Origin: Sphingopyxis italica
Lineage (GTDB): Bacteria > Pseudomonadota > Alphaproteobacteria > Sphingomonadales > Sphingomonadaceae
Length of the DNA stretch: 64,000 bases
Reading direction: 5' to 3'
Assembly: GCF_011926545.1 (NCBI RefSeq)
Contig: NZ_JAATIT010000003.1
Coordinates: 62,001-126,000, forward strand
Made by a program: the position numbers and the translations under genes. This document shows positions 14,589 to 45,629 of this stretch, piece by piece. The notes below the pieces were generated by a model. It saw nothing but the letters and a program-made list of their open reading frames with translations. It was not told the origin of the DNA and did not search any database. The first letter of the stretch is position 1, and every line of letters begins with the position of its first letter.

Positions 14589-16144
14589 GCGACGCTGCGC
14601 TGTTGCCCATCCCAATAGGGCGCCCGAAGGTCCTTCTTGGACACCTTGCCCGACGGGACGAGCGGGAAAGCCTCGACGAAATCGACGCTCTTGGGCACTT
14701 TGTATCCGGCCAGCAGCCCGCGGCAATGCTCGACCAGCAGGGCTTCGTCGGCCGCATGTCCATCGCGCACGATCACGATCGCCTTGACGCATTCCCCCCA
14801 CCGCGGGTCGGGCACGCCGATGACGGCGACGCCGGCGACCGCGGGATGGGTCGAGAGGACATTTTCGATTTCGGCAGAATAGATATTTTCACCGCCAGAG
14901 ACGATCATGTCCTTGGCGCGGTCGACGATATAGTAGAGCCCCTCCTCGTCGCGCCGGGCGATGTCGCCCGAGCGGTACCAGCCGTTTTCGAGAACCTGCT
15001 GGGTGAGGTCGGGTTGACGCCAGTAGCCGGTCGTGATCGAGGGCTGGCGGATCAGGAGTTCGCCGGGTTCGCCGTCCGGGACATCGGCACCGTCGCCGTC
15101 GACGATGCGGAATTCGATCAGGGGCAACGGGCGGCCGCAGCTCTTGAGCTTCTCTTCATGCTCGAGGTCATGCTCGTCGGGACGGAGGATCGAGGTCGCC
15201 CCTCCCGCTTCGGTCGAGCCGTAAAATTGCATGAACTCGCCGGGCATGGACGCGATCGCACGCTTGATGAGACCGAGGCTGATCGGCGAGCCCGCATAAA
15301 GGGTCAGCCGGATCGAAGAGAAATCGGTCTTCGCCGCGTCGGGATGGTCGAGGAGCATCTGCAGCATCGTCGGCGTCAGCGTCAGCAGCGTCGGCTTCAT
15401 CCGGTCAATCGTGGCGAGCATCGCGGCGGGGTCGAACTGCCGGACGATATCGATCGCGACGCCATTGTAGAGGCATTGCAGCATGATGCCGATGTGCAGG
15501 AGATGGAAGTTGGGTAGCCCGTTGACGAAGCTGTCGCCTGCCTCCCATTTGTAGGTCGGCTCGAGATGCTCCGAGAGGCGCATCATGTTGGTGCCGCCGT
15601 GCGAGAGCATCACGCCTTTGGCGTTCCCCGTGGTACCCGAGGTGTAGAGCTGGAACGCCGTGTCTTCGAGATGCGGCCGCTTGCCGACCGGCTTCTCCGA
15701 ACAGGCTGCGACGCGCTTTTCCAGCGTCTCCTGCTCATCGATCCAGATCGCCTGCGGCGGCGTGCTGAGATGGGCACAGGCTGCCTGCCAAAGCTCCGCC
15801 TGCTCGCGTTCGACGATCGCGTGGCGGACCTCGCTGTCGGCGATCTGCGCAGCAAGTTCGGCGGGCGCGAGGCGCCAGTTGAAGATGACGAGGCCGGCGC
15901 GGGTGCGCGCGCAGCCGAAGAGCGCGAAATAGAAGTCGAAGCTGTTCTTGCCCATGAAGCCGACAAGCTCGCCGGGACGCGCGATCCCGTCCGAGAGATA
16001 GTTGGCGACGCGCGCGCAGGCGCGATCGAACTCGGCGAAGTCGACGACCCGCGCCGCGGTGCGGAGAGCCGCGCGCGAAGGGTCATGCCGCGCCCAATAT
16101 TCGGGATATTGGCCAAGACTGCGGATTTCCGGAAAGAGCCACAT
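14585..16144 (-). CDS. Acyl-CoA synthetase (FadD-like AMP-forming ligase)
   Basis: A 519-residue adenylate-forming ligase with the P-loop YTSGTTGNAKGV at about 171-182, QFYGSTEAGG, YRSGDIARRDEEGLYYIVDRAKDMI and the C-terminal catalytic lysine segment PLVPSGKVSKKDLR. It converts a carboxylic acid, ATP and CoA into the acyl-CoA that enters the beta-oxidation-like operons on either side. Start ATG at 16144 has GGAGGG upstream and lies one base before the upstream crotonase stop. Alicyclic or fatty side-chain acids are the probable substrates; AliA-like function is a guess from the badHI context. Confidence 0.85.
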   Translation of the reverse strand: MWLFPEIRSLGQYPEYWARHDPSRAALRTAARVVDFAEFDRACARVANYLSDGIARPGELVGFMGKNSFDFYFALFGCARTRAGLVIFNWRLAPAELAAQIADSEVRHAIVEREQAELWQAACAHLSTPPQAIWIDEQETLEKRVAACSEKPVGKRPHLEDTAFQLYTSGTTGNAKGVMLSHGGTNMMRLSEHLEPTYKWEAGDSFVNGLPNFHLLHIGIMLQCLYNGVAIDIVRQFDPAAMLATIDRMKPTLLTLTPTMLQMLLDHPDAAKTDFSSIRLTLYAGSPISLGLIKRAIASMPGEFMQFYGSTEAGGATSILRPDEHDLEHEEKLKSCGRPLPLIEFRIVDGDGADVPDGEPGELLIRQPSITTGYWRQPDLTQQVLENGWYRSGDIARRDEEGLYYIVDRAKDMIVSGGENIYSAEIENVLSTHPAVAGVAVIGVPDPRWGECVKAIVIVRDGHAADEALLVEHCRGLLAGYKVPKSVDFVEAFPLVPSGKVSKKDLRAPYWDGQQRSVA

Positions 16145-16145
16145 G

Positions 16146-16934
16146 TCACATCCCTCCGAATTCAGGTCGGCGGCGCTCGGTGAACGCCTTGATCGCGCCG
16201 GCGGCGTCGCGCGTCCCCGACGACCGGCTGAGCGCCTGGGCTTCGAGTTCGAGCTGCGTTTCGAGCGGCTGGTCGAAGACCGAGAGCATGAGGCGGCGGA
16301 TTTCGCCGAACGCCTTGGTCGGACCCGCAGCCAGTTGCAGCGCGACTTCTTCGGCCCGCGCACGAAATGCGTCCTTTGGGTGAACCTCGTCGGCGAGGCC
16401 GCATGCGAGCGCCGCCTCAGCGCCGAGGCTTTCGTTGAGCAGCAGAAAGCGGCGCGCGCGCGACGCGCCCATGCGCCGCGCATACATGATCGACGATCCC
16501 GCGTCGCACGAGAAGCCGATCCCGGGATAGGCGGCGACGAACTTCGCATCCTCGGCGGCGATCAGGATGTCAGCGCCAGCAACAAATGCCGACATGCCGC
16601 CGGCGCAAACGCCATGCACCGCCGCGACGATCGGGGCGTCCATGCGCTGGAGCCGCGCGATCCCGCTATGGAGCGTGGTCGTCCAGCGTTTGATATTCGC
16701 AGGAAGTGAGTCGAGCTCGTTCACGAAGCTGGTAATGTCGCCGCCATAGCCGAAGGCATCGCCAAGCGCGGTGACGAGGACGCAGCGCACCGAGGGATCC
16801 ACCGACAATAGGGTCGCTGCCTCGCAGGTTTCGGCGCAGAAGGTCTCGTCGATCGGGTTGCCCCGAACTGCATTGTTGAACTCGAGACGGGCCAGCCCGT
16901 CTTCGACTGTAAGCGTCAAGCGCTCGAACGCCAT
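16146..16934 (-). CDS. Enoyl-CoA hydratase/isomerase (crotonase)
   Basis: A 262-residue crotonase: LEFNNAVRGNPID near 18-30, GDAFGYGGDITSF (oxyanion hole), AAVHGVCAGGMSAFVAGADILIAAEDAKF and PGIGFSCDAGSSIMYARRMGASRARRFLLL. The usual paired glutamates are not obvious (MSAF and FSCDAG at these positions), so isomerase or hydrolase-like chemistry should be considered. It is the first gene of the minus operon with the CoA ligase and second crotonase. A conserved palindrome lies 25-38 bp upstream of its start. Confidence 0.82.
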   Translation of the reverse strand: MAFERLTLTVEDGLARLEFNNAVRGNPIDETFCAETCEAATLLSVDPSVRCVLVTALGDAFGYGGDITSFVNELDSLPANIKRWTTTLHSGIARLQRMDAPIVAAVHGVCAGGMSAFVAGADILIAAEDAKFVAAYPGIGFSCDAGSSIMYARRMGASRARRFLLLNESLGAEAALACGLADEVHPKDAFRARAEEVALQLAAGPTKAFGEIRRLMLSVFDQPLETQLELEAQALSRSSGTRDAAGAIKAFTERRRPEFGGM

Positions 16935-17114: not shown

Positions 17115-19451
17115 TCAGAAGCGGTAGCCCACCTTGAGGCCGTAAATCCGCGGTTCGCCGGGGAAATCGCTCAGCGTCGAGCCGAGCGCCAGGACCGTAC
17201 GGCGATAATTTTTGTTCGTGGCATTGGTCACATAGGCGGTGATCCTGAAGTCGCCGATCTCATAGGCGGCACGAAGGTCGAGCAGCCCGTAGGAAGGCTC
17301 CTTCGACAGGCTGACTGCGCCACCATAGATGGGATCGGCCTCGCCGGGCTCGTGATAGAATTTCGCGAGCATCGCATAGTCCGCGCGCAGGGTCAGGCCG
17401 CTGTCGTCGCCGATCGGAATGCGCCATTCGCCGCCGACATTGATGCTGTGCTTGGGTGCGCGAACCAGGGGACGGTCGGAAAAGTTCGTGGCGGCCGTCG
17501 GCGGGACTCCTGCCGCGTTGGTGAAGTAGGAATCATATTTGGCGTCGAGATAGCCATAGGTCACGCTGAGGTCGAAATTGTCGCTCGGACGAAGCAGCAG
17601 TTCGACGTCGGCGCCGTAGATTTTCGACGAGGCGGCATTGCTGATCAGGCTCGCTGCCGCACCGCCGCCGAGGTCGACGATGCGCGAGACCTGCAGGTCC
17701 TTATAGTCGTAGTGGAAGGCCGCGACGTTGAAGCGAAGACGGCGATCGAGCCATTCCGACTTGAAGCCGACTTCATAGGTCGTGATGTCCTCGGGCTGGA
17801 ACAGGACGTTCGCCTGCGCCGCCGAGAAGGGAACATATTGGAAGCCGCCGCTCTTGAAGCCGGTCGAGAAGCTCGCATAAATGCTCGCGTCGGGGCTGAA
17901 CTTGTAGGTGGCGACGACGCGCGGGTCGAAGCTCTCGTAAGTGGCGCTGTTATCGACCGCAAACGGCACCGCGACAAGCGGCACGCCCGGACGCGTATTG
18001 AGCCCCTGCTGGACCGCACGCTTCTCGTCGCGGGTATAGCGGCCGCCGAGCGTGACCTCGAACTTCTCGCCGAGATGGAGCGTAGCCTGGCCGAAGATGG
18101 CATAGCTGTCGATCTCATAGTCCGAGATCGCGGTGCTGACCTGCGGGCCTCCTGGGGTCCCCGCTGGGTTCGGCGGACTGGGCAGCGGAATCCCCGCAAC
18201 CACACTGTCGTTGCCCAGCCGGAACTCGTCGCGCCGCGAGCTCCGATCGCGATAGTAGAAGGCCCCGATGATCCAGTCGAGCGCGCCGTCGAACGAGGCC
18301 GGTCCGCTCGGATCCGAGGTGATGCGGATTTCTTGCGTGAACTGCCTGGAGCGCTCGTTGCTGAGCTGGTTGATCACGTCGAGCGAGGAGCCTTCGAGGT
18401 CGCGGCCGTCGGAAATGCGAAGCTTTTTCAGCGCACTGATCGACGTGATCGTCGCGAAGCCGGCATCATATTCAACCCGGCCTATGTAGCTTTCGGTCTT
18501 GCGATCGAGATAGGGATCGAAGGACCAATAGCCCTCGTTGCCGCCGGTGTAGGCGATCGGCGTGCGTCCCGCCCGGCCGAGGAAGACGGCGAAGGGGTTG
18601 GCGGGCGTCGTGACGCCGGCAAGCGAACGCGCCGGGCCGCTACCGCGGTTGAAGCCGGCGAAGGCGGCCTTGTCGCCGTCCCGCGACAGTTCCGCGGTGA
18701 GATCGATCGTGAACTCGTCGCTGGGCGCGAACTTCAGGCGGGCGCGGCCGCCCCAATTGTCGATGCCCTGGAACTTGTTCCCGGTGGTGAGGTTCGTCTG
18801 ATAGCCATCGCGCTCGGCCTTCCAGCCGGCGACGCGGAACATCAGCTTGTCGCTTGCGATCGGACCTCCGACGGCGCCGAAAAGGCTGTAGCCGTCATAG
18901 TTGCTGATGCCCGCTTCGGCCTCGCCGGTGAAGTGATCCGTCGGCCCTTTGGTAATCACGTTTATTGCACCCGCGATCGTGTTTCGGCCATACAGCGTGC
19001 CCTGCGGACCGCGCAGGACCTCGATGCGTTCGATATCGCGAAGCGAGCCGAAAGACCCCGAAGCGCGGCCGGCATAGACGTCGTCGATGAACACGCCGAC
19101 CGAGCTTTCCGAGCCGGGATCGAAGGAGCGCGTACCGATGCCGCGAATATAAAGCTGCGGCCGTGCCGCGCCGAACGACCCAAAATAGAAGGACGGAACG
19201 CGCGGGGCGATATTCTCAAGGCTGAGAATTCCGAGCTTTTCTACCTGCTGGCCGCCAAATGCCGTAATCGCGACCGGGATATCCTGAACCCGTTCCTCGC
19301 GGCGCTGGGCCGTGACCAGGATCTCGCCGGAGTAGGCATCTTCCTGTGCGGCAGGCGCTTCGGGCGCCGCGGCATCCTGTGCCATGGCGGCGTGCAGCGG
19401 CGCCATCAGGGCCGCTCCGGACAAAAGGATTCTGAGTGTAGTGGCCTTCAT
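17115..19451 (-). CDS. TonB-dependent outer membrane receptor
   Basis: A 778-residue receptor with a signal peptide (MKATTLRILLSGAALMAPLHAAMAQDA), a TonB-box/plug region (EILVTAQRREERVQDIPVAITAFGGQQVEKLGI), plug motifs RGIGTRSFDPGSESSVGVFIDDVYAGR and EVLRGPQGTLYGRNTIAGAINVIT, and a terminal aromatic residue in YGLKVGYRF typical of beta-barrels. ATG at 19451 follows GGGAGGG. Such receptors in sphingomonads import hydrophobic catabolic substrates across the outer membrane. Placement between the CoA-oxidation and p-cumate-type clusters and the palindrome at 19511-19524 suggest coregulation with the former. Confidence 0.92.
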   Translation of the reverse strand: MKATTLRILLSGAALMAPLHAAMAQDAAAPEAPAAQEDAYSGEILVTAQRREERVQDIPVAITAFGGQQVEKLGILSLENIAPRVPSFYFGSFGAARPQLYIRGIGTRSFDPGSESSVGVFIDDVYAGRASGSFGSLRDIERIEVLRGPQGTLYGRNTIAGAINVITKGPTDHFTGEAEAGISNYDGYSLFGAVGGPIASDKLMFRVAGWKAERDGYQTNLTTGNKFQGIDNWGGRARLKFAPSDEFTIDLTAELSRDGDKAAFAGFNRGSGPARSLAGVTTPANPFAVFLGRAGRTPIAYTGGNEGYWSFDPYLDRKTESYIGRVEYDAGFATITSISALKKLRISDGRDLEGSSLDVINQLSNERSRQFTQEIRITSDPSGPASFDGALDWIIGAFYYRDRSSRRDEFRLGNDSVVAGIPLPSPPNPAGTPGGPQVSTAISDYEIDSYAIFGQATLHLGEKFEVTLGGRYTRDEKRAVQQGLNTRPGVPLVAVPFAVDNSATYESFDPRVVATYKFSPDASIYASFSTGFKSGGFQYVPFSAAQANVLFQPEDITTYEVGFKSEWLDRRLRFNVAAFHYDYKDLQVSRIVDLGGGAAASLISNAASSKIYGADVELLLRPSDNFDLSVTYGYLDAKYDSYFTNAAGVPPTAATNFSDRPLVRAPKHSINVGGEWRIPIGDDSGLTLRADYAMLAKFYHEPGEADPIYGGAVSLSKEPSYGLLDLRAAYEIGDFRITAYVTNATNKNYRRTVLALGSTLSDFPGEPRIYGLKVGYRF

Positions 19452-19540: not shown

Positions 19541-21433
19541 CTATCCTTCCAGCATGGAAGTTTTGGCGACCGATTGGTAAATGTGGTCGAGGGCGGCCGG
19601 ATCCTCGATCGTGGCGGGCACGGCGACGGTCTCGCCATTGGCAATTGCACGGATCGTTGCACGCAGGGTTTTGCCCGAGCGCGTCTTGGGCAGCGACTTC
19701 ACGACATGAACCGATTTGAATGCCGCCACGGGCCCAAGCTCGTCGCGAACCCGCGCCACGACTTCGCGCGCGACCAGCGCGTCGGTCGCCTTCACGCCGG
19801 CCTTGAGGACGATGAAGCCGAGGGGAATCATTCCCTTGATGGCGTCGTTGGCCCCGATCACCGCGCATTCGGCAACCGCGGGATGCGCGGCGACAATCTG
19901 CTCGATCGAGCCGGTCGAGAGGCGGTGGCCCGCGACATTGATGATATCGTCGATCCGGCTCATGACGTGGACGAAGCCGTCTTCGTCGATCAGTCCCGCA
20001 TCGCCGGTCGTATAATAGCCCTGATGCTGGCTCAAATACGCGTCCTGGAAGTGGGCATGGCGCTGCCAGAGCGTCGGGAAGCAGCCGGGCGGCAGCGGCA
20101 GCCTGAGAACGATGTCGCCGACCTCGCCCGTCGGGAGGCAGTTGTCCTCGGCATCGAGGATTTCGAAACCATAGCCTGGAATGGGATGGCCCGCGCTTCC
20201 GTGGCGCGTGCGCGTGTCGCCGAGCCCGATACAGGTTCCAAGCGCGGGCCAGCCGAGCTCGGTTTGCCACCAATGGTCGATTACGGGCACGCCGAGCATC
20301 GCCTCGGCCCAGCCGAGCGTATCGGGGTCGGCGCGTTCGCCCGCGAGGAAGAGCGCGCGCAAGCGGCCGGTTCCCTTCTCGGCCAGCAACCGCCCTTCGG
20401 GATCGTCGCGCTTCACCGCACGGATCGCGGTCGGGGCGGTGAAGAAAACATCGACGTCATGGTCGCGGATCACACGCCAGAAGGCGCCCGCATCGGGTGT
20501 GCCAACGGGTTTGCCCTCATACATCACGCTGGTGCAGCCGTGGATGAGCGGGCCGTAGACGATATAGCTGTGGCCGACGGCCCAGCCGATGTCGGAGCCT
20601 GCCCAGAAGGTCTCGTCGCGGCCGACGCCGTAAATATTGGGAACCGACCACGCCATGGCGACCGCATGTCCGCCATTGTCGTGGACGACGCCCTTGGCGA
20701 TGCCGGTCGTTCCCGAAGTATAGAGAATGTAGAGCGGATGATCGGAGGGCACCGCAACGCAGCCCGCCGGTTCGGCGCCGGCGAGGGCCTCGAACCAGTC
20801 GAGATCGCGGCCCGCGACAAGCGACGCCGCAAGCTCGGGCCGCTGGAGGACGATCGTGCGCGGTACTTTGTGCGCGGCGAGATCGATCGCCGCGTCGAGC
20901 AGCGGCTTGTAAGCGACGATCCGGCCAGGCTCGAGCCCGCACGATGCGGTGAGCACGAGGCGAGGCTGGGCGTCATCGATGCGCTTGGCGAGTTCGTTCG
21001 AGGCGAAGCCGCCGAACACCACCGAGTGAACCGCGCCGATGCGCGCGCAGGCCAGCATCGCGAATACCGCCTCGGGCACCATCGGCATATAGATGATGAC
21101 GCGATCGCCGGGCGCGACGCCCTCGGCCGCGATCATTCCCGCGACGCGAGCAACCTCGCGCTGAAGGTCGGCGTAGCTGTACCGCGTGACCTTACGCGTC
21201 ATCGCGCTATCGTGAATAAGCGCTATCCGGTCGCCCCGGCCCGCCGCGACGTGGCGATCGACCGCGTTATGACAGGTGTTGAGGCGCCCGTCGGGGAACC
21301 AGGTCCAGATGCCGTCGTCCTGCGCGTCCGCTGCCCGTGTCGGCGCCTGGTCCCAGTCGATCGCCTTCGCTGCTTCCATCCAGAAGGCCGCAGGATCGGC
21401 GATGCTTGCCGCATAGACCGACGCGTAGGTCAA
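19541..21433 (-). CDS. Propionate/isobutyrate-CoA ligase (PrpE-like)
   Basis: A 630-residue AMP-forming ligase of the acetyl/propionyl-CoA synthetase type: ASIADPAAFWMEAAKAIDWDQAP at the N-terminus, YTYTSGTTGIAKGVVHDNGGHA-like P-loop region, TDRDVDVFFTAPTAIRA-type hinge region and C-terminal PKTRSGKTLRATIRAIANG with the catalytic lysine. TTG at 21433 is preferred: AGGAGAGG lies upstream and TTGA overlaps the stop of the preceding gene. In a cmt-type pathway the C-C hydrolase releases isobutyrate; a short-chain acid ligase as last gene of the lower operon would activate it to isobutyryl-CoA. Acetate or propionate activation is the alternative. Confidence 0.82.
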   Translation of the reverse strand: MTYASVYAASIADPAAFWMEAAKAIDWDQAPTRAADAQDDGIWTWFPDGRLNTCHNAVDRHVAAGRGDRIALIHDSAMTRKVTRYSYADLQREVARVAGMIAAEGVAPGDRVIIYMPMVPEAVFAMLACARIGAVHSVVFGGFASNELAKRIDDAQPRLVLTASCGLEPGRIVAYKPLLDAAIDLAAHKVPRTIVLQRPELAASLVAGRDLDWFEALAGAEPAGCVAVPSDHPLYILYTSGTTGIAKGVVHDNGGHAVAMAWSVPNIYGVGRDETFWAGSDIGWAVGHSYIVYGPLIHGCTSVMYEGKPVGTPDAGAFWRVIRDHDVDVFFTAPTAIRAVKRDDPEGRLLAEKGTGRLRALFLAGERADPDTLGWAEAMLGVPVIDHWWQTELGWPALGTCIGLGDTRTRHGSAGHPIPGYGFEILDAEDNCLPTGEVGDIVLRLPLPPGCFPTLWQRHAHFQDAYLSQHQGYYTTGDAGLIDEDGFVHVMSRIDDIINVAGHRLSTGSIEQIVAAHPAVAECAVIGANDAIKGMIPLGFIVLKAGVKATDALVAREVVARVRDELGPVAAFKSVHVVKSLPKTRSGKTLRATIRAIANGETVAVPATIEDPAALDHIYQSVAKTSMLEG

Positions 21434-22095
21434 AGCACCTCTCCTGTCAGATGGTGCCACATCCGCTCGACGACGCCGCCCGACCAGATTTGCCGCGCGT
21501 CGATCTCTTCGGGCGAAAGCCGTGCCGCCTCGACATCGAGACCCATGCTGCGGACCGACTGCTCGACCCGCGCCGCATCCTCGAGGAACCAGCCGAGGGT
21601 AACCGCCTGCGGCAGGTCTGCGCCGACGACGACCGCGCCATTGCCGCGCATGACGAGCGCGGGCGCATCCCCAAGCATATTCGCGAGCGCTGCCGCCGCC
21701 GCGTCGTCGCGCAGCAGCCGCGGATCGTTCCAGAGCGGGAGCCGTCCGAAATAGGCGCCGATGCCGTGACGCGGGACGGGAACGAGGCCAGCCACCGAGA
21801 GCGCCATCAGCGCGGGCGGCATGATCCGGCAAACACCACCCACCTCGGGGCGACGCCGGTAGATTTCGCGGTGGATGCGCACTTCGCCGAGCACACCCTC
21901 GGGCAGCGGCCCATCGATCGGCACGACGATGCCCGGCTCGTCCGTGATACGCCCCATCGGGAGCGGCGCGCAGACGAGAAAGCTGCCCACGTCGAGGCGA
22001 GCGCTACAATGACCGAAAGCATGGACGAGCCCCGCCGAAGCGAGCGCCCGGGCAGCGAGCCGGACCTGCGCGTCGAGGCCGGCCGGCACCGTCAT
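21430..22095 (-). CDS. Class II aldolase/adducin-fold protein, putative HCOMODA-type decarboxylase (CmtD-like)
   Basis: A 221-residue class II aldolase-fold protein (AFGHCSARL at 26-33, [19 protein letters not shown] at 70-88, [18 protein letters not shown] at 148-165). In the p-cumate pathway the ring-cleavage product is decarboxylated by CmtD, a member of this superfamily, and the gene's position between aldolase and ligase genes fits that step. The usual metal-binding HxH is replaced by Cys89-Arg-Ile-Met92, and the RGHG histidine by Asn152, so the metal site appears lost. Function is therefore a context-based inference. Both ends overlap neighbours by 4 bp. Confidence 0.65.
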
Positions 22096-23120
22096 TTGCG
22101 GGTCCGGACCATGTCGAGTGCGACATCGACGATCATGTCTTCCTGCCCGCCGACCATCTTGCGGCGACCCAGTTCGACAAGGATTGCGCGCGTATCGAGG
22201 CCGTGATCGGCAGCGGCCTTTTCAGCGTGGCGCAGGAAGCTCGAGTAAACTCCAGCGTAGCCGAGGGTCAGCGTTTCGCGATCGACGCGGACCGGCCGGT
22301 CCTGCAGCGGCCGAACCAGATCCTCGGCGGCGTCCATCAGCGCATAGAGGTCGCAGCCATGGTTCCAGCCATGGACGTCGGCGGCGGCGATGAAGACTTC
22401 GAGCGGGGCATTGCCTGCCCCTGCCCCCATGCCCGCGAGCGATGCATCGACGCGGATCGCACCGCCCTGCACCGCGACGATGCTGTTCGCGACCCCGAGG
22501 CTGAGGTTGTGGTGCGCGTGGACGCCGCGCTGCGTCTCGGGCCTGAGTACCCGGTCATAGGCCGCGAGCCGCGCGGCATATTGGTCCATCGTCATCGCAC
22601 CGCCGCTGTCGGTGACATAGACGCAGTGCGCGCCGTAGCTTTCCATAAGAAGCGCCTGGCTCGCGAGCGCATCGGGCTCGGACATATGGCTCATCATCAG
22701 GAAGCCCGAGACGTCCATTCCAAGACCACGCGCCGCCTCGATATGCTGCTTCGATACATCGGCCTCGGTGCAATGCGTCGCGATGCGCACCGACCGCACG
22801 CCCAAATCATAGGCGCGCTTCAGATCGTGAACGGTGCCGATGCCGGGCAGCAGCAAGGTCGTGAGCACGCTATGCTCGAGCACCTCGGCGACCGCACCGA
22901 TCCACTCCCAGTCGGTGTGCGCGCCGAACCCATAGTTGAAGCTCGAACCCTGCAAGCCGTCGCCGTGCGCGACCTCGATCGCATCGACCTTGGCGCGGTC
23001 GAGGGCGCGGGCGATCGCCTGCACATGGTCGAGGCCATATTGATGGCGGATCGCATGCATGCCGTCGCGCAGCGTGACGTCTTGAATATAGAGCTTGGTC
23101 GTGGCGGGATCGAAGGTCAT
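22092..23120 (-). CDS. mhpE: 4-hydroxy-2-oxovalerate aldolase
   Basis: A 342-residue DRE-TIM metallolyase with [17 protein letters not shown] at 13-29 (catalytic Asp/Arg), [48 protein letters not shown] (metal-binding His pair) and a C-terminal [28 protein letters not shown] segment. It cleaves 4-hydroxy-2-oxopentanoate to pyruvate and acetaldehyde and works in a channelled complex with the acylating dehydrogenase, whose gene overlaps its start by 4 bp. Start ATG at 23120 was chosen over longer frames because of that coupling. CmtG is the corresponding name in p-cumate clusters. Confidence 0.94.
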
Positions 23121-24058
23121 GCCGCTGCTCCCGACTGCATCCGCGCCGCGATCTTCTCGGCGGTCCTGAGCGCCGCCGAGGTCATGATGTCGAGATTGCC
23201 CGCATAGGCAGGCAGGTAATGCGCCGCGCCCTCGACCTCGAGGAAGACGCTGACCTTGAGGCCGGTAAAGCTTCCGCCCATTTCGGGAATGCGCAGCGGC
23301 GCATTGCTGCCGATGCTTTCGAACTGGACCGCCTGCTTCAGCCGATATCCGGGGACATAGGTCTGCACCTCGGCGACCATATCGGCGACGCTTTGCGCAA
23401 TCGCCTCGCGGTCGCCATCCTCGCAAAGGCAATAGACGGTGTCGCGCATGATCAGCGGCGGCTCGGCGGGATTGAGGACGATGATCGCCTTGCCGCGCGT
23501 CGCGCCGCCGACATCGACGATCGCCTGGCTCGTCGTCTCGGTAAATTCGTCGATATTGGCGCGGGTGCCAGGACCCGCGCTCTTCGAGGCGATCGAGGCG
23601 ACGATCTCGCCATAATGGACTTTCGCGACGCGGTTCACCGCCGCGACGATCGGGATCGTCGCCTGCCCGCCGCAGGTCACCATATTGACGTTCGCGGCAT
23701 CAAGGTTGGCGTCGCCGTTGACCGGCGGAATCGTATAGGGACCGATCGCCGCGGGGGTCAGGTCGACGACACGCTTGCCGTGACCGATCAGCACCTCACT
23801 ATGGTGCTTGTGCGCACCTGCCGAGGTCGCATCGAAGACGATGGCGATGTCGGAAAAGCCCGGCATCGCGACCAAGCCGTCGAGCCCGTCCGCGGTGACC
23901 GGCACGCCCATGCGCTCCGCGCGCTTCAGCCCGTCGCTCTCGGGGTCGATGCCAACGAAGGCGCCCATCTCCAAAACGCCTGACAGGCGCATGATCTTGA
24001 TCATCAGGTCGGTGCCGATATTGCCCGATCCGATGATTGCGACCTTGGACTTCGCCAT
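23117..24058 (-). CDS. mhpF: Acylating acetaldehyde dehydrogenase
   Basis: A 313-residue NAD- and CoA-dependent dehydrogenase: [18 protein letters not shown] at the N-terminus, [17 protein letters not shown], catalytic Cys in [17 protein letters not shown] and [16 protein letters not shown]. It converts acetaldehyde (or propionaldehyde) from the partner aldolase into acetyl-CoA. It lies 4 bp after the hydratase gene and overlaps the aldolase gene by 4 bp, the standard meta-cleavage lower-pathway arrangement. Confidence 0.94.
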
Positions 24059-24062
24059 CACA

Positions 24063-24839
24063 TCAGGCCCGGTACGTGAAGCTGCAGCGGCCGATCCCGG
24101 CAATCCGCGCTTCGACATGGTCACCGGAAGTGAGCGCCACCATCGGCCCGAGCGCGCCGGCGAGCAATATGTCGCCCGCTTTCAGCGGCTCGCCTCTCCC
24201 GGCCAATGTCTGCGCTAGCCACGCAGCGGCGTTTAGCGGGTTGCCGAGCGCCGCGGCGCCCACCCCGGTCGAGGCGGTCGTGCCGCCGACGTCCATTTCC
24301 ATCGCCGCGCCTTCGAGATCGAGTCCGGCGAGCGGCAATCCCTGTTCAGCCAGTACGAAGAAAGCCGAGGAGCCATTGTCCGCCACCGTGTCGGCAAAGC
24401 TGATCTTCCAGTCGGCGATGCGGCTGTCGACGATCTCGATCGCAGCATGCACACTCCCGACTGCCGCCGCGACCTGCTCCACGGTCGTTGCCGGGTCCGG
24501 CAGGTCGGCGCCCAGCACGAAGGCGATCTCGGCTTCGGCTTTCGGCTGCAGCGTCTTCGCGGGATCGAGCGTGCCGCCGTCGGCGATGCGCATATCGTCG
24601 AACAGCACCCCGAAATCGGGCTGGTCTACGCCAAGCTGGGTCTGAACCGCCTTCGCGGTCAGTCCCGCCTTGCGGCCGACGATGCGGCGCCCCTGCGCTT
24701 CCCAATAGCGCGTGTTAATCGTCTGCACCGCATAGGCGCCATCGGCATCACCAGGTTCGAGCGCATCGCGCAGCGGAGGAACGGCGCCGCCTGCATAGGC
24801 TTCGCGTAGCCGCGCGGCGGTGTCGTGATGGCTCGGCAT
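24063..24839 (-). CDS. mhpD: 2-hydroxypenta-2,4-dienoate (2-oxopent-4-enoate) hydratase
   Basis: A 258-residue MhpD/FAH-like hydratase with [57 protein letters not shown] (metal-binding acidic residues) and [31 protein letters not shown]. It hydrates the dienoate released by the C-C hydrolase to 4-hydroxy-2-oxopentanoate. It is the first gene of the leftward operon, divergent from the Rieske oxygenase genes, and the TetR-type operator at 24895-24920 sits 56 bp upstream. Confidence 0.92.
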
Positions 24840-24894
24840 CGTCCCTCTTCCCGTCTGCGGCGTTTGTTCACCGATTGACTAATTGCGACTCATG

Positions 24895-24920
24895 TTACAT
24901 ACCAAGTGCACGGTTTGTAA
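24895..24920. promoter_or_regulatory. CymR-like operator, copy 1
   Basis: The dyad TTACATACC-N8-GGTTTGTAA lies in the 110-bp divergent region, 29 bp from the Rieske alpha start and 56 bp from the hydratase start. The central eight bases AAGTGCAC match those of copy 2 (AAGTGCCC) when that copy is read on its minus strand. Position, length and pairing with an adjacent TetR gene make it a likely repressor site. Confidence 0.8.
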
Positions 24921-24949
24921 AGAGCCCAAGAGCTCGAAAGGGAAGAGGA

Positions 24950-26212
24950 ATGGAGCAAAGCCTGCGGCCGGTCGTCGACGAAACACGCGGAATCTACCGT
25001 GTTCCGCGCCGTGCCTTTGTCGATCCGGGGGTGTTCGAGCGCGAATGCCGCGCCATTTTCGATAAATGCTGGCTCTATCTCGGCCATGCGTCCGAGCTTC
25101 CGAACCCGGGCGACTATGTGACGCGCAAGGTCGCCGGCCGCCCGATGCTCTTCACCCGCGACAAGGATGATCAGTATCACGCGCTGATCAACGTCTGCCC
25201 GCATCGCGGCGCGGTCGTCTGCCGCGAGCGCAAGGGCTCGTCGCCCGCCTTTCAGTGCATGTATCATGGCTGGGTGTTCGCCAACACCGGGCGGCTGATG
25301 GTCGTGCCCGGGCATGCCGGCTATCCCGCCGACTATAAGGACGACCCGGGCAAGCAGCTTAGCCACGCGCCCCGCTTCGACCGCTTCGGCGACTTCTTCT
25401 TCGTGAGCTTTGCCGCCGACGGCGAAGATCTCGCGACCTATCTCGCAGGCGCCGGCGACTATCTGAAACTCGTGTCCGAGCAATCGTCGAAGGGCATGAC
25501 GATCGTCGGCGGGACGCAGGAATATTCGATCCGCGGCAACTGGAAGCTGCTCGCCGAGAACAGCGTCGACGGCTATCATGCCGCGAGCACGCACTCGACT
25601 TATCTCGAATATCTCAAGAACGCGAACGGCTCGACGCACGATACGCGCCTCGCCGGGTTCGGGCACGATCTCGGAAACGGCCATGCGGTTATCGAATATT
25701 TCGCGCCATGGGGCCGGCCGATCGCGAACTGGATCCCGCTCTGGGGCGAGGAAGGCAAGCGCGAGATTGAGGCGATCCAGCAGGATCTGACTGCACGCCT
25801 CGGACAGGAGCGCGCCGAGCGGATCGCAAAGCAGAGCCGCAACATGATCATCTTCCCCAATCTCGTCATCAACGACGTGATGGCGATCACGGTGCGCACC
25901 TTCTGGCCGACCGCGCCCGACTATATGGAGGTTAATGCCTGGGCCCTCGCTCCCGCCGAGGAATCGGAGTGGCTGCGCAAATTCCGCCTCTTCAACTTCA
26001 CCGAATTTCTGGGACCCGGCGGTTTCGCGACCCCCGACGACGTCGAGGCGATCGAGAAATGCCAGACCGGCTACCAGGCGGCACGCGAGGCACAATATAA
26101 TGATATCTCGCGCGGCATGCTGCGCGAGGGCGGGTCGGCCTATGACGACGAGCTTCAGATGCGCTGTTTCTGGAACGAGTGGGATCGCCGCATCCAGGAG
26201 CATGGCGCATGA
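24950..26212 (+). CDS. Rieske ring-hydroxylating dioxygenase alpha subunit (p-cumate dioxygenase-like)
   Basis: A 420-residue oxygenase large subunit. The Rieske cluster ligands are Cys83, His85, Cys103 and His106 (CPHRG...CMYHGW), and the mononuclear iron site contains NSVDGYHAASTH with His210 and His215. It dihydroxylates an aromatic ring, here probably a benzoate-type acid such as p-cumate given the downstream genes. ATG at 24950 has GGAAGAGG upstream. The beta subunit gene overlaps by 4 bp. No dedicated ferredoxin or reductase gene is in this operon, so electrons must come from proteins encoded elsewhere. Confidence 0.9.
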   Translation: MEQSLRPVVDETRGIYRVPRRAFVDPGVFERECRAIFDKCWLYLGHASELPNPGDYVTRKVAGRPMLFTRDKDDQYHALINVCPHRGAVVCRERKGSSPAFQCMYHGWVFANTGRLMVVPGHAGYPADYKDDPGKQLSHAPRFDRFGDFFFVSFAADGEDLATYLAGAGDYLKLVSEQSSKGMTIVGGTQEYSIRGNWKLLAENSVDGYHAASTHSTYLEYLKNANGSTHDTRLAGFGHDLGNGHAVIEYFAPWGRPIANWIPLWGEEGKREIEAIQQDLTARLGQERAERIAKQSRNMIIFPNLVINDVMAITVRTFWPTAPDYMEVNAWALAPAEESEWLRKFRLFNFTEFLGPGGFATPDDVEAIEKCQTGYQAAREAQYNDISRGMLREGGSAYDDELQMRCFWNEWDRRIQEHGA

Positions 26213-26715
26213 CCCGCGAGGCCGAGATCGACGCGATGCTGCTCCAGCACCGCGTGCAGAGCTTCCTCTTCCACGAGGCCGACCTGCTCGACCGCTGGCA
26301 GCTCAATGAATGGGAAGCGCTGTTCGCGGACGAGGCGAGTTATCTCGTGCCCCCGACCGACGTCGATGGCGACTTCGCCGACCCGAGCAAGTCGCTCTTC
26401 TACATCTTCGACGACCGGACCCGCATTCATGAGCGCGTCGTGCGTCTCGAGAAGAAAGGCGCTCACAGCGAGTTCCCGCGATCGAAGACCCGCCACCTCG
26501 TCAGCAATGTCCGGGCCTCGGCGGACGGTGACACGATCGAAGCGACCGCCTCCTTCGCGGTCTGGCGGTCGAAGGATGGGAACACCGATATCTTCGTCGG
26601 TCATTATGCGTACAAGCTCGTCGAGATCGACGGCGCACTGCGCATCGCCGAGAAGAAATGCGTGCTCGATATGGACGCGCTCCGGCCGCATGCCCGCATC
26701 AGCATCTTGCTCTAG
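26209..26715 (+). CDS. Ring-hydroxylating dioxygenase beta subunit
   Basis: A 168-residue NTF2-fold small subunit (HRVQSFLFHEADLLDRWQLNEWEALFADEASYLVPPTD at the N-terminus, KTRHLVSNVRA, RIAEKKCVLDMD near the C-terminus). It assembles with the Rieske alpha subunit as a structural alpha3beta3 oxygenase and has no metal site. It starts within the stop of alpha (ATGA), so subunit synthesis is coupled. Confidence 0.92.
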   Translation: MTREAEIDAMLLQHRVQSFLFHEADLLDRWQLNEWEALFADEASYLVPPTDVDGDFADPSKSLFYIFDDRTRIHERVVRLEKKGAHSEFPRSKTRHLVSNVRASADGDTIEATASFAVWRSKDGNTDIFVGHYAYKLVEIDGALRIAEKKCVLDMDALRPHARISILL

Positions 26716-26724
26716 GATGACGAT

Positions 26725-27621
26725 ATGACCGCACCCTTCCGCTACCGGCGCCTGTCCTACGTCGCGCTCGACGTCTCCGACCTCGAACAATCGCTCGGCT
26801 TCTACCGCGATCTCGTCGGTCTCACCGTCGATCGGCGTGATGGCGATACCGCCTATCTTCGCTGCAGCGAGCTACCGCAAAACCTCGTGCTGCGCGAGGG
26901 CGACACGCCCGGCCTCGCGCGCGCGGCGTTCGAGCTCGAAAGCCAGGCCGATCTCGATCGCGCCTATACCTATCTCGACGACGAGGGCTTCGCGCCCGAA
27001 TGGTTGACTGCCGAGGAAGCGGGCGAGCTGAAAGTCGGAGCGGCGCTCCGATTTCGCGAGCCCGGCTGCGGTCTGCATTTCGAGTTTCACGTCGAGCCAG
27101 AACTGCAGGATGATTTCGAGGCCGGGCATACCGCGATCGCGCGTCTCGGCCATGTCGTGCTCAACGTCGCCGACTTCGCCACGGTGGAAGGCTCGCTCGT
27201 CGGCAAGCTCAACTTCCTGATTTCGGACCATGTGCCTGGGAAGATCGCCTTCCTGCGCGCTTTTCCCAACAAATATCACCACAGCTTCGCGATCCTGACC
27301 GGCCCATCGGACGGCTATAATCACGTCAATTTCATGGTCTCGGACATCGACGACGTCGGGCGCGCGATCAACCGGATGAAGAAGGCCGAGGTGCCGATCG
27401 TCTTCGGCCCCGGGCGCCACGAGCCCTCGGGCAGCATCTTCCTCTATTTCCTCGACCCCGACGGGATGACCACCGAATATAGCTTCGGCATGGAGGAGTT
27501 CGAGGAAGAGGGGGCGCGGCCGCCGCGCGAACTCGAAGCGAAACCCGAGGTGCTCGACACCTGGGGCAGCATTCCCGACCCGCGCTTCGGCAAGGGCGGC
27601 GCGATCCTCGCCCATGCGTGA
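26725..27621 (+). CDS. Type I extradiol ring-cleavage dioxygenase
   Basis: A 298-residue two-domain vicinal-oxygen-chelate enzyme. The C-terminal domain carries the iron ligands His143 (ARLGHVVLNV), His200 (GYNHVNFMV) and Glu251 (MTTEYSFG), and His185/186 (YHHSFAIL) corresponds to the second-sphere active-site histidine. It cleaves a catechol next to its hydroxyls; in the cmt pathway the substrate is 2,3-dihydroxy-p-cumate, cleaved 3,4. It follows the oxygenase beta gene by 9 bp and overlaps the SDR gene by 8 bp. BphC-type substrates are the alternative. Confidence 0.9.
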   Translation: MTAPFRYRRLSYVALDVSDLEQSLGFYRDLVGLTVDRRDGDTAYLRCSELPQNLVLREGDTPGLARAAFELESQADLDRAYTYLDDEGFAPEWLTAEEAGELKVGAALRFREPGCGLHFEFHVEPELQDDFEAGHTAIARLGHVVLNVADFATVEGSLVGKLNFLISDHVPGKIAFLRAFPNKYHHSFAILTGPSDGYNHVNFMVSDIDDVGRAINRMKKAEVPIVFGPGRHEPSGSIFLYFLDPDGMTTEYSFGMEEFEEEGARPPRELEAKPEVLDTWGSIPDPRFGKGGAILAHA

Positions 27622-28357
27622 GTCGCTCCATGACGGCCGGGTTGCGATCGTCACCGGCGCCGGACAGGGTATCGGCCTCGCCATCGCGCGCCGCCTCGAG
27701 GCCGACGGCGCCCGCGTCATGTTTGCCGATCTCGAGGAAGCGGCCGCGCGCAAGGCGGCAGGCGAGACGGGCGCCGCCTTCTGGGGCGATCTCGCCGACG
27801 AAGAAACGGCAGCGCGGCTCGTCGCCAAAACCGTCGAAACGCTCGGCGCGCCGGCGATTCTCGTGAACAACGCCGGGGGCGGCATCCTCCGCCCCTTTCT
27901 CGACCATACGCCCGAGACGCTGCGCGCGACGATCGACCGCAATCTCTGGACCGCGATCTGGTGCAGCTGGCACGCGCTGCCCCACATGAAGGCGGCCGGC
28001 TGGGGCCGCGTGATCAACATCGGTGCCGACAGCGTTCGCAACGGCCTCTTCGACCATGCCGGCTACAATGCCGCCAAGGGCGGCATGCACGGCATGACCA
28101 CGGGGCTCGCCCGCGAGTTTGCGAGGGACGGCATCACGGTCAACACCGTCGCCCCCTGCGCGGTGGTGACCCCGCAATATCGCGAGATCGAGAAGAGCAA
28201 TCCCGACCTCATCGCCAAGGTGGTGAGCGTGATCCCGATGGGGCGCGCCGGCACCGAGGAAGAGGTCGCCAGCATGGTCGCCTATCTGGCGCGTGACGAG
28301 GCCGGTTTCGTGACCGGCCAGGTCGTCAGCGTCAACGGCGGCACGACAATGCTCTGA
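27614..28357 (+). CDS. SDR cis-dihydrodiol dehydrogenase (CmtB-like)
   Basis: A 247-residue classical SDR with TGAGQGIG at 14-21, VNNAGGG, catalytic Ser in IGADSVRNGL and YNAAK (Tyr about 149). It would rearomatise the cis-dihydrodiol formed by the Rieske oxygenase using NAD, giving the catechol for the extradiol enzyme. The role is assigned from operon position; SDR sequence alone would not distinguish it from other dehydrogenases. Confidence 0.8.
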   Translation: MRESLHDGRVAIVTGAGQGIGLAIARRLEADGARVMFADLEEAAARKAAGETGAAFWGDLADEETAARLVAKTVETLGAPAILVNNAGGGILRPFLDHTPETLRATIDRNLWTAIWCSWHALPHMKAAGWGRVINIGADSVRNGLFDHAGYNAAKGGMHGMTTGLAREFARDGITVNTVAPCAVVTPQYREIEKSNPDLIAKVVSVIPMGRAGTEEEVASMVAYLARDEAGFVTGQVVSVNGGTTML

Positions 28358-28391
28358 GCGATCACGCTCCAACCCAGAGACAAGGAAGACC

Positions 28392-29222
28392 ATGACCAAC
28401 CCCGAAATCGGCCAGTCGATCGTCGCGAACGGCATTCGCACCAACTATATCGAAGCTGGCGACGCATCGCTGCCGGCGCTCGTCCTGATCCACGGCTCGG
28501 GGCCCGGCGTCACCGCCTTCGCCAACTGGAATGGCGTGATCCCCGCGCTCAGCGAACATTTCCACGTCCTTGCGCCCGACATGGTCGGCTTCGGATATAC
28601 CGAGGTTCCCGAGGACGTGACCGACTTCACGCTCGATTTCTGGGTCGATCATATCATCGGCTTTCTCGACGCGCTCGGGATCGAGCAGGCCAGCTTCATC
28701 GGCAACAGCTATGGCGGCGCGCTCAGCCTCGCCGTCGCCGCCCGCCATCCGGCGCGTGTCCGCCGCTTCGCGTTGATGGGCGCGGCAGGCCTCCGGTTCG
28801 AGATGTCGAAAGGGCTGCTCGACGTGTGGGGTTATGAGCCGTCCGAGGCGAATATGCGCAAGCTCATGGAAACCTTCGCCTATAATCCGGGCCTCGTCAC
28901 CGACGCGATCGTGCTCTCACGCCACAATGCCAGCATCCGTCCCGGTTCGCACGAGGCCTTCTCGCGCCTCTTCCCCGAGCCGCGGCAGGCCAAGCTCGAC
29001 CGGCTCGCGACGCCCGAAGAGGATATCCGCAAGATCGAGGCTCCTGCGCTCATCATCCATGGGCGCGAAGATGTGATCGTTCCCGTTGACGTGGCCTATC
29101 GTTTCTCGGCATTGCTCCCCCATTCGGAGCTGCATGTGTTTGGGGAATGCGGGCATTGGACACAGATAGAGAAGAAGGACCGGTTCGTGGAGGTCGTGCT
29201 GCCGTTCCTGAAGGCAGCGTGA
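28392..29222 (+). CDS. Meta-cleavage product C-C hydrolase (CmtE/BphD-like)
   Basis: A 276-residue alpha/beta hydrolase of the MCP hydrolase type: IHGSGPGVTAFANWNGVIPAL, nucleophile Ser106 in GNSYGGA, DMVGFGYTEVP, acid Asp in GREDVIVPVD and His in GECGHWTQIE. It hydrolyses the C-C bond of a 2-hydroxy-6-oxo-dienoate to 2-hydroxypentadienoate plus a carboxylic acid (isobutyrate in the p-cumate case). The stop overlaps the TetR start as GTGA. Confidence 0.91.
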   Translation: MTNPEIGQSIVANGIRTNYIEAGDASLPALVLIHGSGPGVTAFANWNGVIPALSEHFHVLAPDMVGFGYTEVPEDVTDFTLDFWVDHIIGFLDALGIEQASFIGNSYGGALSLAVAARHPARVRRFALMGAAGLRFEMSKGLLDVWGYEPSEANMRKLMETFAYNPGLVTDAIVLSRHNASIRPGSHEAFSRLFPEPRQAKLDRLATPEEDIRKIEAPALIIHGREDVIVPVDVAYRFSALLPHSELHVFGECGHWTQIEKKDRFVEVVLPFLKAA

Positions 29223-29833
29223 AACGCCAGCGGCGCTCGCAGGGCGAGCGCTCGGAGGAGATGCGCGAGCGCGTCGCGCACGCCACGTTCGAGGTCATTG
29301 CCGCCCGCGGCTTTTCGGGGCTCCGGACAGCCGCGGTCGCCGAACAGGCGGGGGTTAGCCAAGGCGCGCTCCTCCACCATTTCGAGACCAAGCATGGCCT
29401 GACGCTCGCGACGGTCGAATATGCCTTCGCGCGCGCGTCGGCCAAGACCGAGGACATCATCGAGGCGGGACTTGCCAGGGGCGAGGATCCGATCGACCTC
29501 ATGCTCGACGACTTCCGGCTCTATTTCTTCAACGATGATTTCTGGGTGTCGCTCGACATCACCATCAACGCATCGAAGGATCCCGAGCTCAAGGGCGGGA
29601 TCCGCGAGATCGTGCCGCGCTACCGCCTCGGCGTCTACCGGCGCTGGGTCGGCATCCTTTCGGAAAATGGCTGGTCGACGAGCGATGCCGAAGAAATCGT
29701 GCGGATGAGCGCGGCGCTCACCACCGGCCTCGGCATCCGGACACTTTTCGACGACGTCGATGAATATCTTGCCTCGACGCTCCGGAAATGGCGCAAGATG
29801 GTCGACGCGGCCTGGCCTCGCAAAACGGCTTAG
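29219..29833 (+). CDS. CymR-like TetR-family repressor
   Basis: A 204-residue TetR regulator. The N-terminal helix-turn-helix covers SEEMRERVAHATFEVIAARGFSGLRTAAVAEQAGVSQGALLHHFETKHGL (about 11-60). From memory, the C-terminal ligand domain shares a scattered pattern with Pseudomonas putida CymR, the p-cumate-responsive repressor: MLDD..FF.DDF..SLD, DP.L..GI, W.G.L...G.S..DAE.I and GL..R.L, and the length is nearly equal (CymR about 203). GTG at 29219 is used because it overlaps the hydrolase stop. As the last gene of the upper operon it probably represses from the dyads at 24895 and 30722 and releases with the pathway acid as inducer. Confidence 0.85.
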   Translation: MKRQRRSQGERSEEMRERVAHATFEVIAARGFSGLRTAAVAEQAGVSQGALLHHFETKHGLTLATVEYAFARASAKTEDIIEAGLARGEDPIDLMLDDFRLYFFNDDFWVSLDITINASKDPELKGGIREIVPRYRLGVYRRWVGILSENGWSTSDAEEIVRMSAALTTGLGIRTLFDDVDEYLASTLRKWRKMVDAAWPRKTA

Positions 29834-30687
29834 CGCGCTTCGGCGACCACCGGATTCTCGATCGCGCCCACCCCGTCAATCTCGCATCGCACGATGTCGC
29901 CGACTTTCAGGAAGACCGGCGGGTCCATCGCGATGCCGACGCCCTCGGGCGTGCCCGTCGCGATGAGGTCACCGGGTTCGAGCGTGAAGGCAGTCGAGAG
30001 ATATTCGATCTGCTCGTAGATATTGTGGAGCATCATGCCGGTGTTCGACGACTGACGCTCTTCGCCATTTACCAGGCAGCGGATCGGCAAGTCATGCGGA
30101 TCGGCAATCTCGTCGGCAGTTACGATCCAAGGGCCGATCGGGCCATGGGTGTCGAAGGACTTCCCCATCGTCATCGTCTGCGAGTGGAATTGCCAGTCGC
30201 GGGTCGAGACATCGTTGGCGACGAAATAGCCGAAGATATGCGCAGGCGCGTCGGCGGCGGACACATGCTTTGCAGCCTTGCCGATCACGACCCCAAGCTC
30301 TGCCTCATAATCGATCTGGTCCGACACATCGGGCTTCAAGATGCCATCGAAAGGACCGGCGATCGACGTCGTCTGCTTGTTGAACCAGAGCTGCTTCTTG
30401 GGCTCGGCAATGCCGAGCTTTGCCCCTTCTTCGACATGCTTGCGATAGTTCATGCCGATCGCGAGATATTTGCCGGGTCGTTCGATCGGCGCGAGGAGCC
30501 GAACCGATGCCATAGGTACCGACGCCGCGGACGCGGCAAAGTCGGTGATGCGAGCGAGCGCCCCCACGCCCTCCCGCACCACCGACAAGAGATCGAGGAA
30601 ACCAAGCGGTTCCAGATCGACCACAGCATCGCCGATCACCATGCCTGCGCGCGCGCCAGCACCACCGTCGAACCGAACCAGCTTCAT
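29830..30687 (-). CDS. Fumarylacetoacetate hydrolase-family protein
   Basis: A 285-residue FAH-fold protein with GMNYRKHVEEGAKLG, the metal-binding acidic segment DYEAELGVVIGKAAKHV, the VANDVSTRDWQ motif and the ATGTPEGVGIAMDPP loop. Relatives are acylpyruvate hydrolases, oxaloacetate decarboxylases and HHDD isomerases. It converges on the TetR gene (4-bp overlap) and has its own copy of the CymR-like operator 35 bp upstream, so it belongs to the same regulon. It might act on the carboxylated ring-cleavage product, for example as an alternative decarboxylase or isomerase. Confidence 0.82.
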   Translation of the reverse strand: MKLVRFDGGAGARAGMVIGDAVVDLEPLGFLDLLSVVREGVGALARITDFAASAASVPMASVRLLAPIERPGKYLAIGMNYRKHVEEGAKLGIAEPKKQLWFNKQTTSIAGPFDGILKPDVSDQIDYEAELGVVIGKAAKHVSAADAPAHIFGYFVANDVSTRDWQFHSQTMTMGKSFDTHGPIGPWIVTADEIADPHDLPIRCLVNGEERQSSNTGMMLHNIYEQIEYLSTAFTLEPGDLIATGTPEGVGIAMDPPVFLKVGDIVRCEIDGVGAIENPVVAEAR

Positions 30688-30721
30688 TTTGCCCTCACCC
30701 CTCGATCCCTGATGGCGTCAT

Positions 30722-30747
30722 TTACATACCGGGCACTTGGTATGTCA
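30722..30747. promoter_or_regulatory. CymR-like operator, copy 2
   Basis: The dyad TTACATACC-N8-GGTATGTCA lies 35 bp upstream of the FAH-family gene start at 30687. Arms and spacer match copy 1 in length and sequence. Confidence 0.8.
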
Positions 30748-45321: not shown

Positions 45322-45629
45322 AGACTCACGAAGACATCGTCGCCATCGATGCGGACCGGATAGCGTTCGAGGATGATGCTATCATCTTCCTGGCATGCAC
45401 CCGACTCAAGATCGAAGGTCCAGCCATGCCACGGGCATGTCAGGATAGTCCCTTCCACATCGCCCTCATGAAGCGGGCCTTCCGCGTGCGGACATTGGCC
45501 GTTGGTCGCGATGACGCGGCCGCGGCACATGAAGAGCGCGACATCCTGCCCGCCCGCCTCGGTGAGGATTGGTTCGCCGGCCTCGACAGCGGCAAGCGAT
45601 CCGATGCGATATTCCTTCGTGTCGGTCAT
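45318..45629 (-). CDS. Rieske-type [2Fe-2S] ferredoxin
   Basis: A 103-residue soluble Rieske ferredoxin with CPHAEGPLHEG and CPWHGWTFDLESG (two Cys and two His ligands) and no membrane anchor. It may be the electron donor of an oxygenase, for example the P450 or the Rieske oxygenase encoded elsewhere in the window, or a partner of the adjacent flavoenzyme. It overlaps the hydroxyacid oxidase gene by 4 bp. Confidence 0.9.
   Translation of the reverse strand: MTDTKEYRIGSLAAVEAGEPILTEAGGQDVALFMCRGRVIATNGQCPHAEGPLHEGDVEGTILTCPWHGWTFDLESGACQEDDSIILERYPVRIDGDDVFVSL

Follow-up and report, generated by a model that had tools for sequence, protein, structure and literature searches.

A p-alkylbenzoate-type meta-cleavage cluster of Sphingopyxis italica with a putative CymR-related TetR repressor and a predicted operator of its own

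Does a p-cumate-type (cmt) meta-cleavage cluster in a sphingomonad come with the repressor CymR, or with a relative of CymR that has its own operator? The question is raised by a stretch of 64,000 nucleotides of Sphingopyxis italica (RefSeq assembly GCF_011926545.1, contig NZ_JAATIT010000003.1, positions 62,001 to 126,000), hereafter the window, in which a Rieske oxygenase operon, a TetR-family gene, and two 26-bp dyads lie together. The published CymR operator is ACAAACAGAC-N6-GTCTGTTTGT, i.e. ACAAAC-N14-GTTTGT (available part of PMC5224996). We consider it likely that the locus encodes a p-alkylbenzoate ring-cleavage pathway, its substrate most likely p-cumate from p-cymene, under a local TetR repressor belonging to a CymR-related sphingomonad subfamily with its own operator. 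The gene content and homologies, the dyads, their conservation across loci, and the co-occurrence of regulator and site within the genus are direct observations.

Identities were computed against a fetched DNA stretch with the cmt genes of Paraburkholderia xenovorans LB400, which the available part of PMC5224996 describes. Eight cluster proteins (the oxygenase alpha and beta subunits, extradiol dioxygenase, short-chain dehydrogenase/reductase (SDR), CmtD-like decarboxylase, hydratase, acylating dehydrogenase, and aldolase) were 49–74% identical to LB400 cmt proteins. An earlier note on this DNA, made from the sequence alone, had described a complete cluster matching the cmt pathway one by one between positions 24,063 and 30,747. 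The meta-cleavage assignment is borne out by these eight proteins, by a hydrolase whose family fits the same intermediate, and by CymAa, CymAb, and CymC homologues upstream; the completeness and the one-by-one match do not hold, since the cluster has no cmt-type ferredoxin or reductase gene and the hydrolase is not CmtE, and the span was drawn too narrowly, as the aldolase, aldehyde dehydrogenase, and CmtD-like genes fall outside it.

The C-C hydrolase shares 30% identity with LB400 CmtE over 271 residues and is thus no match to it. Its best solved relative is PDB 1iun (325 bits, the next different protein scoring 178 bits), with which 147 of 274 query residues (54%) are identical; that entry is named as 2-hydroxy-6-oxo-7-methylocta-2,4-dienoate hydrolase, and we take it to be CumD of a cumene pathway. 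Because the same compound is given as the CmtE substrate in the available part of PMC5224996, the hydrolytic step was, to judge from the sequences, probably retained while CmtE was swapped for a 1iun-type enzyme, one that differs from the 1iun hydrolase in standing within a p-alkylbenzoate-type cluster.

Homologues of LB400 CymAa (50%), CymAb (48%), and CymC (40%) are found on the same contig upstream of the window, and in a plasmid check that covered the first of them and not CymAb or CymC, the CymAa homologue was also present on a Sphingopyxis macrogoltabida plasmid (97%). A XylM-type upper enzyme was set aside on a comparison of identities, made without a tree, in which the upstream monooxygenase was 50% identical to LB400 CymAa vs about 42% to annotated XylM. 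These observations bear on the alternative that the pathway is cmt-type but that its natural substrate and the effector of the TetR protein are another or larger p-alkylbenzoate. We regard this as possible but clearly the lesser prospect: the hydrolase resembles an enzyme named for the isopropyl intermediate and the enzyme on the contig is nearer CymAa than XylM, whereas the hydrolase is not of the CmtE lineage, the effector part of the window TetR has diverged from CymR, and the block in common with the S. macrogoltabida plasmid includes coenzyme A (CoA) ligase, enoyl-CoA hydratase, thiolase, and acyl-CoA dehydrogenase genes. The alternative also draws on P. citronellolis EB200 grown on 4-ethylbenzoate, for which the available part of PMC12442788 treats the p-alkylated benzoate pathway as the p-cumate pathway.

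For the p-cumate-type pathway under a local repressor, the central evidence is the pair of dyads, which are present with the positions and sequences reported for them earlier. Operator 1 is TTACATACC-AAGTGCAC-GGTTTGTAA and reads TTACATACCAAGTGCACGGTTTGTAA toward its gene, the Rieske alpha gene, whose start it precedes by 30 bp, the divergent hydratase start being 56 bp away; operator 2, read toward the fumarylacetoacetase (FAH)-family gene, is TGACATACCAAGTGCCCGGTATGTAA. When the gene-directed readings are compared, the spacer as well as the arms is partly shared in the same orientation. The chance expectation of the dyad in the window has a mean of 0.01, and 0 of 100 shuffles reached the observed four matches. 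A scan of the 4.04-Mb genome for additional copies, as the earlier note had proposed, returned only these two places at up to three mismatches; the S. macrogoltabida plasmid (L003) and genome G069 (L055) carry operator 2 too. Chance dyads were rejected on the window shuffles, the genome scan, and the shuffles of upstream sites in relatives, and a genome-wide motif was rejected on the presence of just two copies. Both dyads had been taken for promoter sites of the cluster; they do precede the Rieske operon and the FAH-family gene, but nothing corresponds to the latter in the stretch of LB400 cmt DNA used for comparison. We predict that they are operators, with arms ACAWAC-N10-GTWTGT, for the TetR protein.

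Conservation of the site was assessed across relatives of the oxygenase. Among 397 genomes of the family, 15 (S. italica included) encode an alpha subunit with an E value of 1e-120 or better. The site was sought in 12 of the other 14 (all but G098 and G390) as the best match to operator 1, on both strands, within the 200 bp preceding alpha. In eight of eight related loci (plasmid pSA1 and seven genomes, alpha 69–72% identical), the best match was the aligned site, with 18–22 of 26 bases agreeing, and at each locus 0 of 300 dinucleotide shuffles reached the observed value; in L083 it was the same site on the other strand. Mean pairwise identity across the nine loci was 74% in the site, the 26-base sites having been picked by eye, and 30% in each flank. 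Six of the eight relatives have a related TetR gene at most about 14 kb from alpha, and none was seen on the short contigs of the other two (L087 and L072). In six of the nine loci a TTGACA box lies 17 bp ahead of the site, the remaining three having TTGACT, TTGACA, and TTGACC at 14, 14, and 16 bp. With a TTGACA box at that distance, the left arm would occupy the position of the −10 box in most loci, an arrangement that would fit a repressor site. The footprint of conservation in the eight loci supports the claim that this operator is distinct from the published cumate operator.

Which protein reads the site is a separate matter. The window TetR (compared mostly as 29222–29833, with M as first residue) has a TetR-type N-terminal DNA-binding domain (PF00440, E 2.4e-11) and is 28.9% identical to LB400 CymR over 194 residues, within an overall range of 27–29%; the earlier statement that it resembles CymR over its length therefore stands weakly, and as a likeness at superclade level only. 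One alternative makes the window TetR a true orthologue of CymR, with simple drift in its operator. Its gene is linked to cmt-type genes, in B. paludis it matches the CymR homologue best (28%), and the arms ACAWAC/GTWTGT occur in both operators. Even so, the two proteins are not reciprocal best matches, as LB400 CymR finds another TetR in the S. italica genome (C1:751137, 36% vs 29%) and the window TetR finds an LB400 TetR other than CymR (36% vs 28%). In trees of 37 and 22 TetR proteins, the window TetR falls in its own sphingomonad clade (support 100/99 and 99/99) and the CymR proteins of LB400 and B. paludis group with another LB400 TetR (95/84 and 88/87), all within a common superclade of the window TetR and CymR (95/94 and 91/96). 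Forcing the window group and CymR into a clade of their own cost 8.7 log units (p-AU 0.045), and with the LB400 paralogue added the p-AU was 0.225. Placement outside the CymR clade, which would have told against the earlier note, is thus a borderline result, given the grouping of CymR with the other LB400 TetR and the p-AU of 0.045, yet also the B. paludis match. A scan for the CymR operator gave seven stretches, of which those of LB400 and B. paludis were used. The S. italica genome has no CymR-type site at up to three mismatches, and an additional CymR-type operator there was rejected on that result. We judge drift in a true orthologue to be quite unlikely. The sequences instead suggest that the window TetR is a relative of CymR at superclade level, in a separate sphingomonad subfamily. 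All NCBIfam matches for the window TetR were far under cut-off, solved-structure relatives of it and of CymR gave weak matches confined mostly to the DNA-binding part, and we found no sphingomonad CymR-like regulator described in the literature covered, which was partial and in which PMC7273453 alone bears on the cluster.

It is also improbable, in our estimation, that the dyads are real operators bound by a regulator other than the in-operon TetR. Other-type TetR genes adjoin near-identical arms in the same genus and S. italica has a second CymR-like TetR of its own, but the site is present at the cluster, twice each, in just the 3 of 80 genomes of the genus that encode this TetR at 90% identity or more; the second CymR-like TetR occurs in 13 of the 80, 11 of them without the cluster TetR, and 0 of these 11 show the site at up to two mismatches. 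That second type (37–39% identical to the window TetR) is represented in S. italica by the TetR of a second aromatic cluster at C1:741500–761400 (L093), which also contains Rieske genes, a CoA ligase gene, and a CmtD-like gene (63%), and it is nearer CymR (37%) than the window TetR is.

Several observations nevertheless weigh against a cmt-type pathway governed by the local TetR and its own operator. Reductase (CmtAa) and ferredoxin (CmtAd) genes of cmt type had no match inside the cluster, the best matches lying on contig C1 (C1:744320, 41%; C1:287859, 40%; C1:728824, 41%), with a weak ferredoxin match at window 45324–45554 (31%, E 2.9e-7); electrons for the Rieske oxygenase would presumably be supplied in trans. 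The FAH-family gene, the PrpE-like synthetase, and the CoA genes stand outside the cmt pathway, and the substrate may for this reason exceed p-cumate in size. The right half of the site is GGTWTCT in most sphingomonad relatives, which leaves it only partly symmetric in them. At eight loci whose alpha is less similar (five family genomes, LB400, B. paludis, and Pseudosulfitobacter), the 200 bp ahead of alpha contained no comparable site. Their value as a control is weak, however: alpha follows a reductase gene in the last three, and the upstream DNA is coding-like in the five family genomes, so no promoter is needed there; the Pseudosulfitobacter operon has ACAAACAGCTTAGTTTGTTTGT farther upstream, ahead of the reductase gene. 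A look-alike, ACATACCAACYRGTYGGTATGT (arms ACATACC-N8-GGTATGT), is present away from the cluster in 7 of the 80 genomes of the genus, so that the arms alone are not diagnostic of the regulator.

Six of the seven look-alike loci were read (L103, L104, L106, L107, L108, and L109, G076 having none; one further match, in G073, was left unread), and in each the dyad adjoins a TetR gene of another type, with the helix VTKGAFFHHF at five and the start of a similar protein at the sixth. The arms were accordingly set aside as diagnostic by themselves, and the TetR gene adjoining the ACATACCAACYRGTYGGTATGT dyad is possibly autoregulated. A search pattern was written from the known sites, and the five cmt loci among its nine matches are consequently not independent; of the remaining four, L118 and L119 were read and L112 and L120 left aside. 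L118 (G428) has TTACAAACAAACTGGTCGGTATGTTT near a Rieske-type gene and a TetR with the helix VSRGAQTHHF, which the tree places outside the CymR superclade.

Spacing was surveyed with ACAWAC-N(4–20)-GTWTGT across 22 stretches (472,324 bases, some overlapping, without a shuffle control), giving 15 raw matches: ten were N10 (nine distinct sites), two were N14 (one B. paludis cmt site in overlapping stretches), and two N6 and one N18 were sub-readings of N10 sites. In LB400 (L094, 3962–3983), an N10 dyad, ACAAACAAATATGTATGTTTGT, is flanked by a Rieske gene and a porin-like gene, some 6 kb away from the gene of the TetR that is nearest CymR, so N10 may be a wider rule, on few loci. Extending this, we offer the following as a speculation that we would not yet back: CymR may be one branch of a set of aromatic-pathway TetR proteins whose usual operator is the 22-bp ACAWAC-N10-GTWTGT, with the 26-bp CymR operator the odd one; the sphingomonad branch might sense p-cumate or a close relative without binding the CymR operator, as a natural switch orthogonal to CymR, and a cumene-type hydrolase might have replaced CmtE in a mosaic pathway.

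Taking the p-cumate-type pathway with its local repressor as the preferred explanation, the Rieske oxygenase and SDR would yield a 2,3-dihydroxy acid, the extradiol enzyme would open the ring, and the CmtD-type enzyme would decarboxylate the product. The 1iun-type hydrolase, in place of CmtE, would then release a short branched acid and 2-hydroxypentadienoate, which the hydratase, aldolase, and acylating dehydrogenase would convert to pyruvate and acetyl-CoA. Without effector, the TetR protein would bind the ACAWAC-N10-GTWTGT dyad overlapping the likely core promoter and block the oxygenase operon and the FAH-family gene, perhaps also the divergent hydratase operon, until an aromatic acid or a pathway intermediate freed it from the dyad. 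The binding, the repression, the effector, and the exact substrate are what we infer from the arrangement in Table 1, in which the PrpE-type synthetase is a candidate activator of the released acid and the TonB-dependent receptor a candidate for substrate uptake.

Table 1. Features of the cluster and its surroundings, in window coordinates
Feature	Position	Strand	Remarks
Operator 1 (predicted)	24895..24920	+	between divergent hydratase (start 24839) and Rieske alpha (start 24950)
Operator 2 (predicted)	30722..30747	-	35 bp upstream of FAH-family gene start
Possible −35 element TTGACT	24875..24880	+	14 bp before operator 1; consensus match only
TetR regulator	29219..29833	+	GTG start overlaps hydrolase stop codon
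Rieske oxygenase alpha subunit, CmtAb-like	24950..26212	+	58% identity to LB400
Oxygenase beta subunit, CmtAc-like	26209..26715	+	53% identity to LB400
Extradiol ring-cleavage dioxygenase, CmtC-like	26725..27621	+	49% identity to LB400
SDR dihydrodiol dehydrogenase, CmtB-like	27614..28357	+	58% identity to LB400
C-C hydrolase resembling PDB 1iun	28392..29222	+	54% to 1iun; 30% to CmtE
FAH-family protein	29830..30687	-	downstream of operator 2
2-hydroxypenta-2,4-dienoate hydratase, CmtF-like	24063..24839	-	56% identity to LB400
Acylating acetaldehyde dehydrogenase	23117..24058	-	71% identity to LB400
4-hydroxy-2-oxovalerate aldolase	22092..23120	-	74% identity to LB400
Class II aldolase-fold decarboxylase, CmtD-like	21430..22095	-	63% identity to LB400
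Acyl-CoA synthetase, PrpE type	19541..21433	-	692 bits, under 955-bit cut-off
TonB-dependent receptor	17115..19451	-	89% to S. macrogoltabida
Two enoyl-CoA hydratase-family genes and AMP-binding CoA ligase	13806..16934	-	in same gene run

The cluster is part of a larger unit. Window positions 635–30748 are 88% identical over 30 kb to plasmid NZ_CP009430.1 of S. macrogoltabida 203, the identity stopping one base beyond operator 2; upstream of the window it continues for 6.9 kb at 95%, as far as the fetched plasmid stretch extends, so the shared block measures at least 37 kb. The block within the window is probably an exchanged catabolic island. In S. macrogoltabida 203N, cmt genes are clustered with xyl genes (available part of PMC7273453), and the sequences indicate that the window genes are very probably the same as these; that source, in the part available, names the genes only and does not mention the regulator, the operator, or the replacement of the hydrolase. 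Plasmid pSA1 of Novosphingobium resinovorum has a similar gene set (alpha 69% identical, CymAa-like gene 52% to LB400). Beyond the block, parts of window 39727–43266 are 67–69% identical in DNA to the plasmid gene that follows it, annotated as of the indolepyruvate ferredoxin oxidoreductase family.

With the cym/cmt systems of LB400 and Pseudomonas putida F1, as set out in the available part of PMC5224996, the S. italica locus has in common the oxygenase, dihydrodiol dehydrogenase, extradiol enzyme, CmtD, hydratase, aldolase, and acylating dehydrogenase, the location of a TetR gene within the cluster, and CymAa, CymAb, and CymC homologues on the same contig. It differs from them in the hydrolase lineage, in having ferredoxin and reductase outside the cluster, in its two divergent operons and FAH-family gene, in a TetR only 27–29% identical, and in an operator spaced N10 rather than N14, with two sites in the genome and none at the upper-pathway genes. 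What is new, as far as comparison of sequences can indicate, would be a subfamily of CymR-like repressors that has an operator of its own and serves a mosaic p-alkylbenzoate pathway. The finding of the earlier note is real, somewhat over-stated in the words "complete" and "CymR", and its operator subfamily and replaced hydrolase are more interesting than was first written.

CymR and its operator are a widely used gene switch. A repressor related to CymR but using an operator of different spacing could provide an independent second switch that responds to the same or a similar inducer. The N10/N14 pair would let one ask how a TetR family alters the spacing of its operators, and the cluster itself offers a testable sphingomonad route for p-cumate with a replaced hydrolase.

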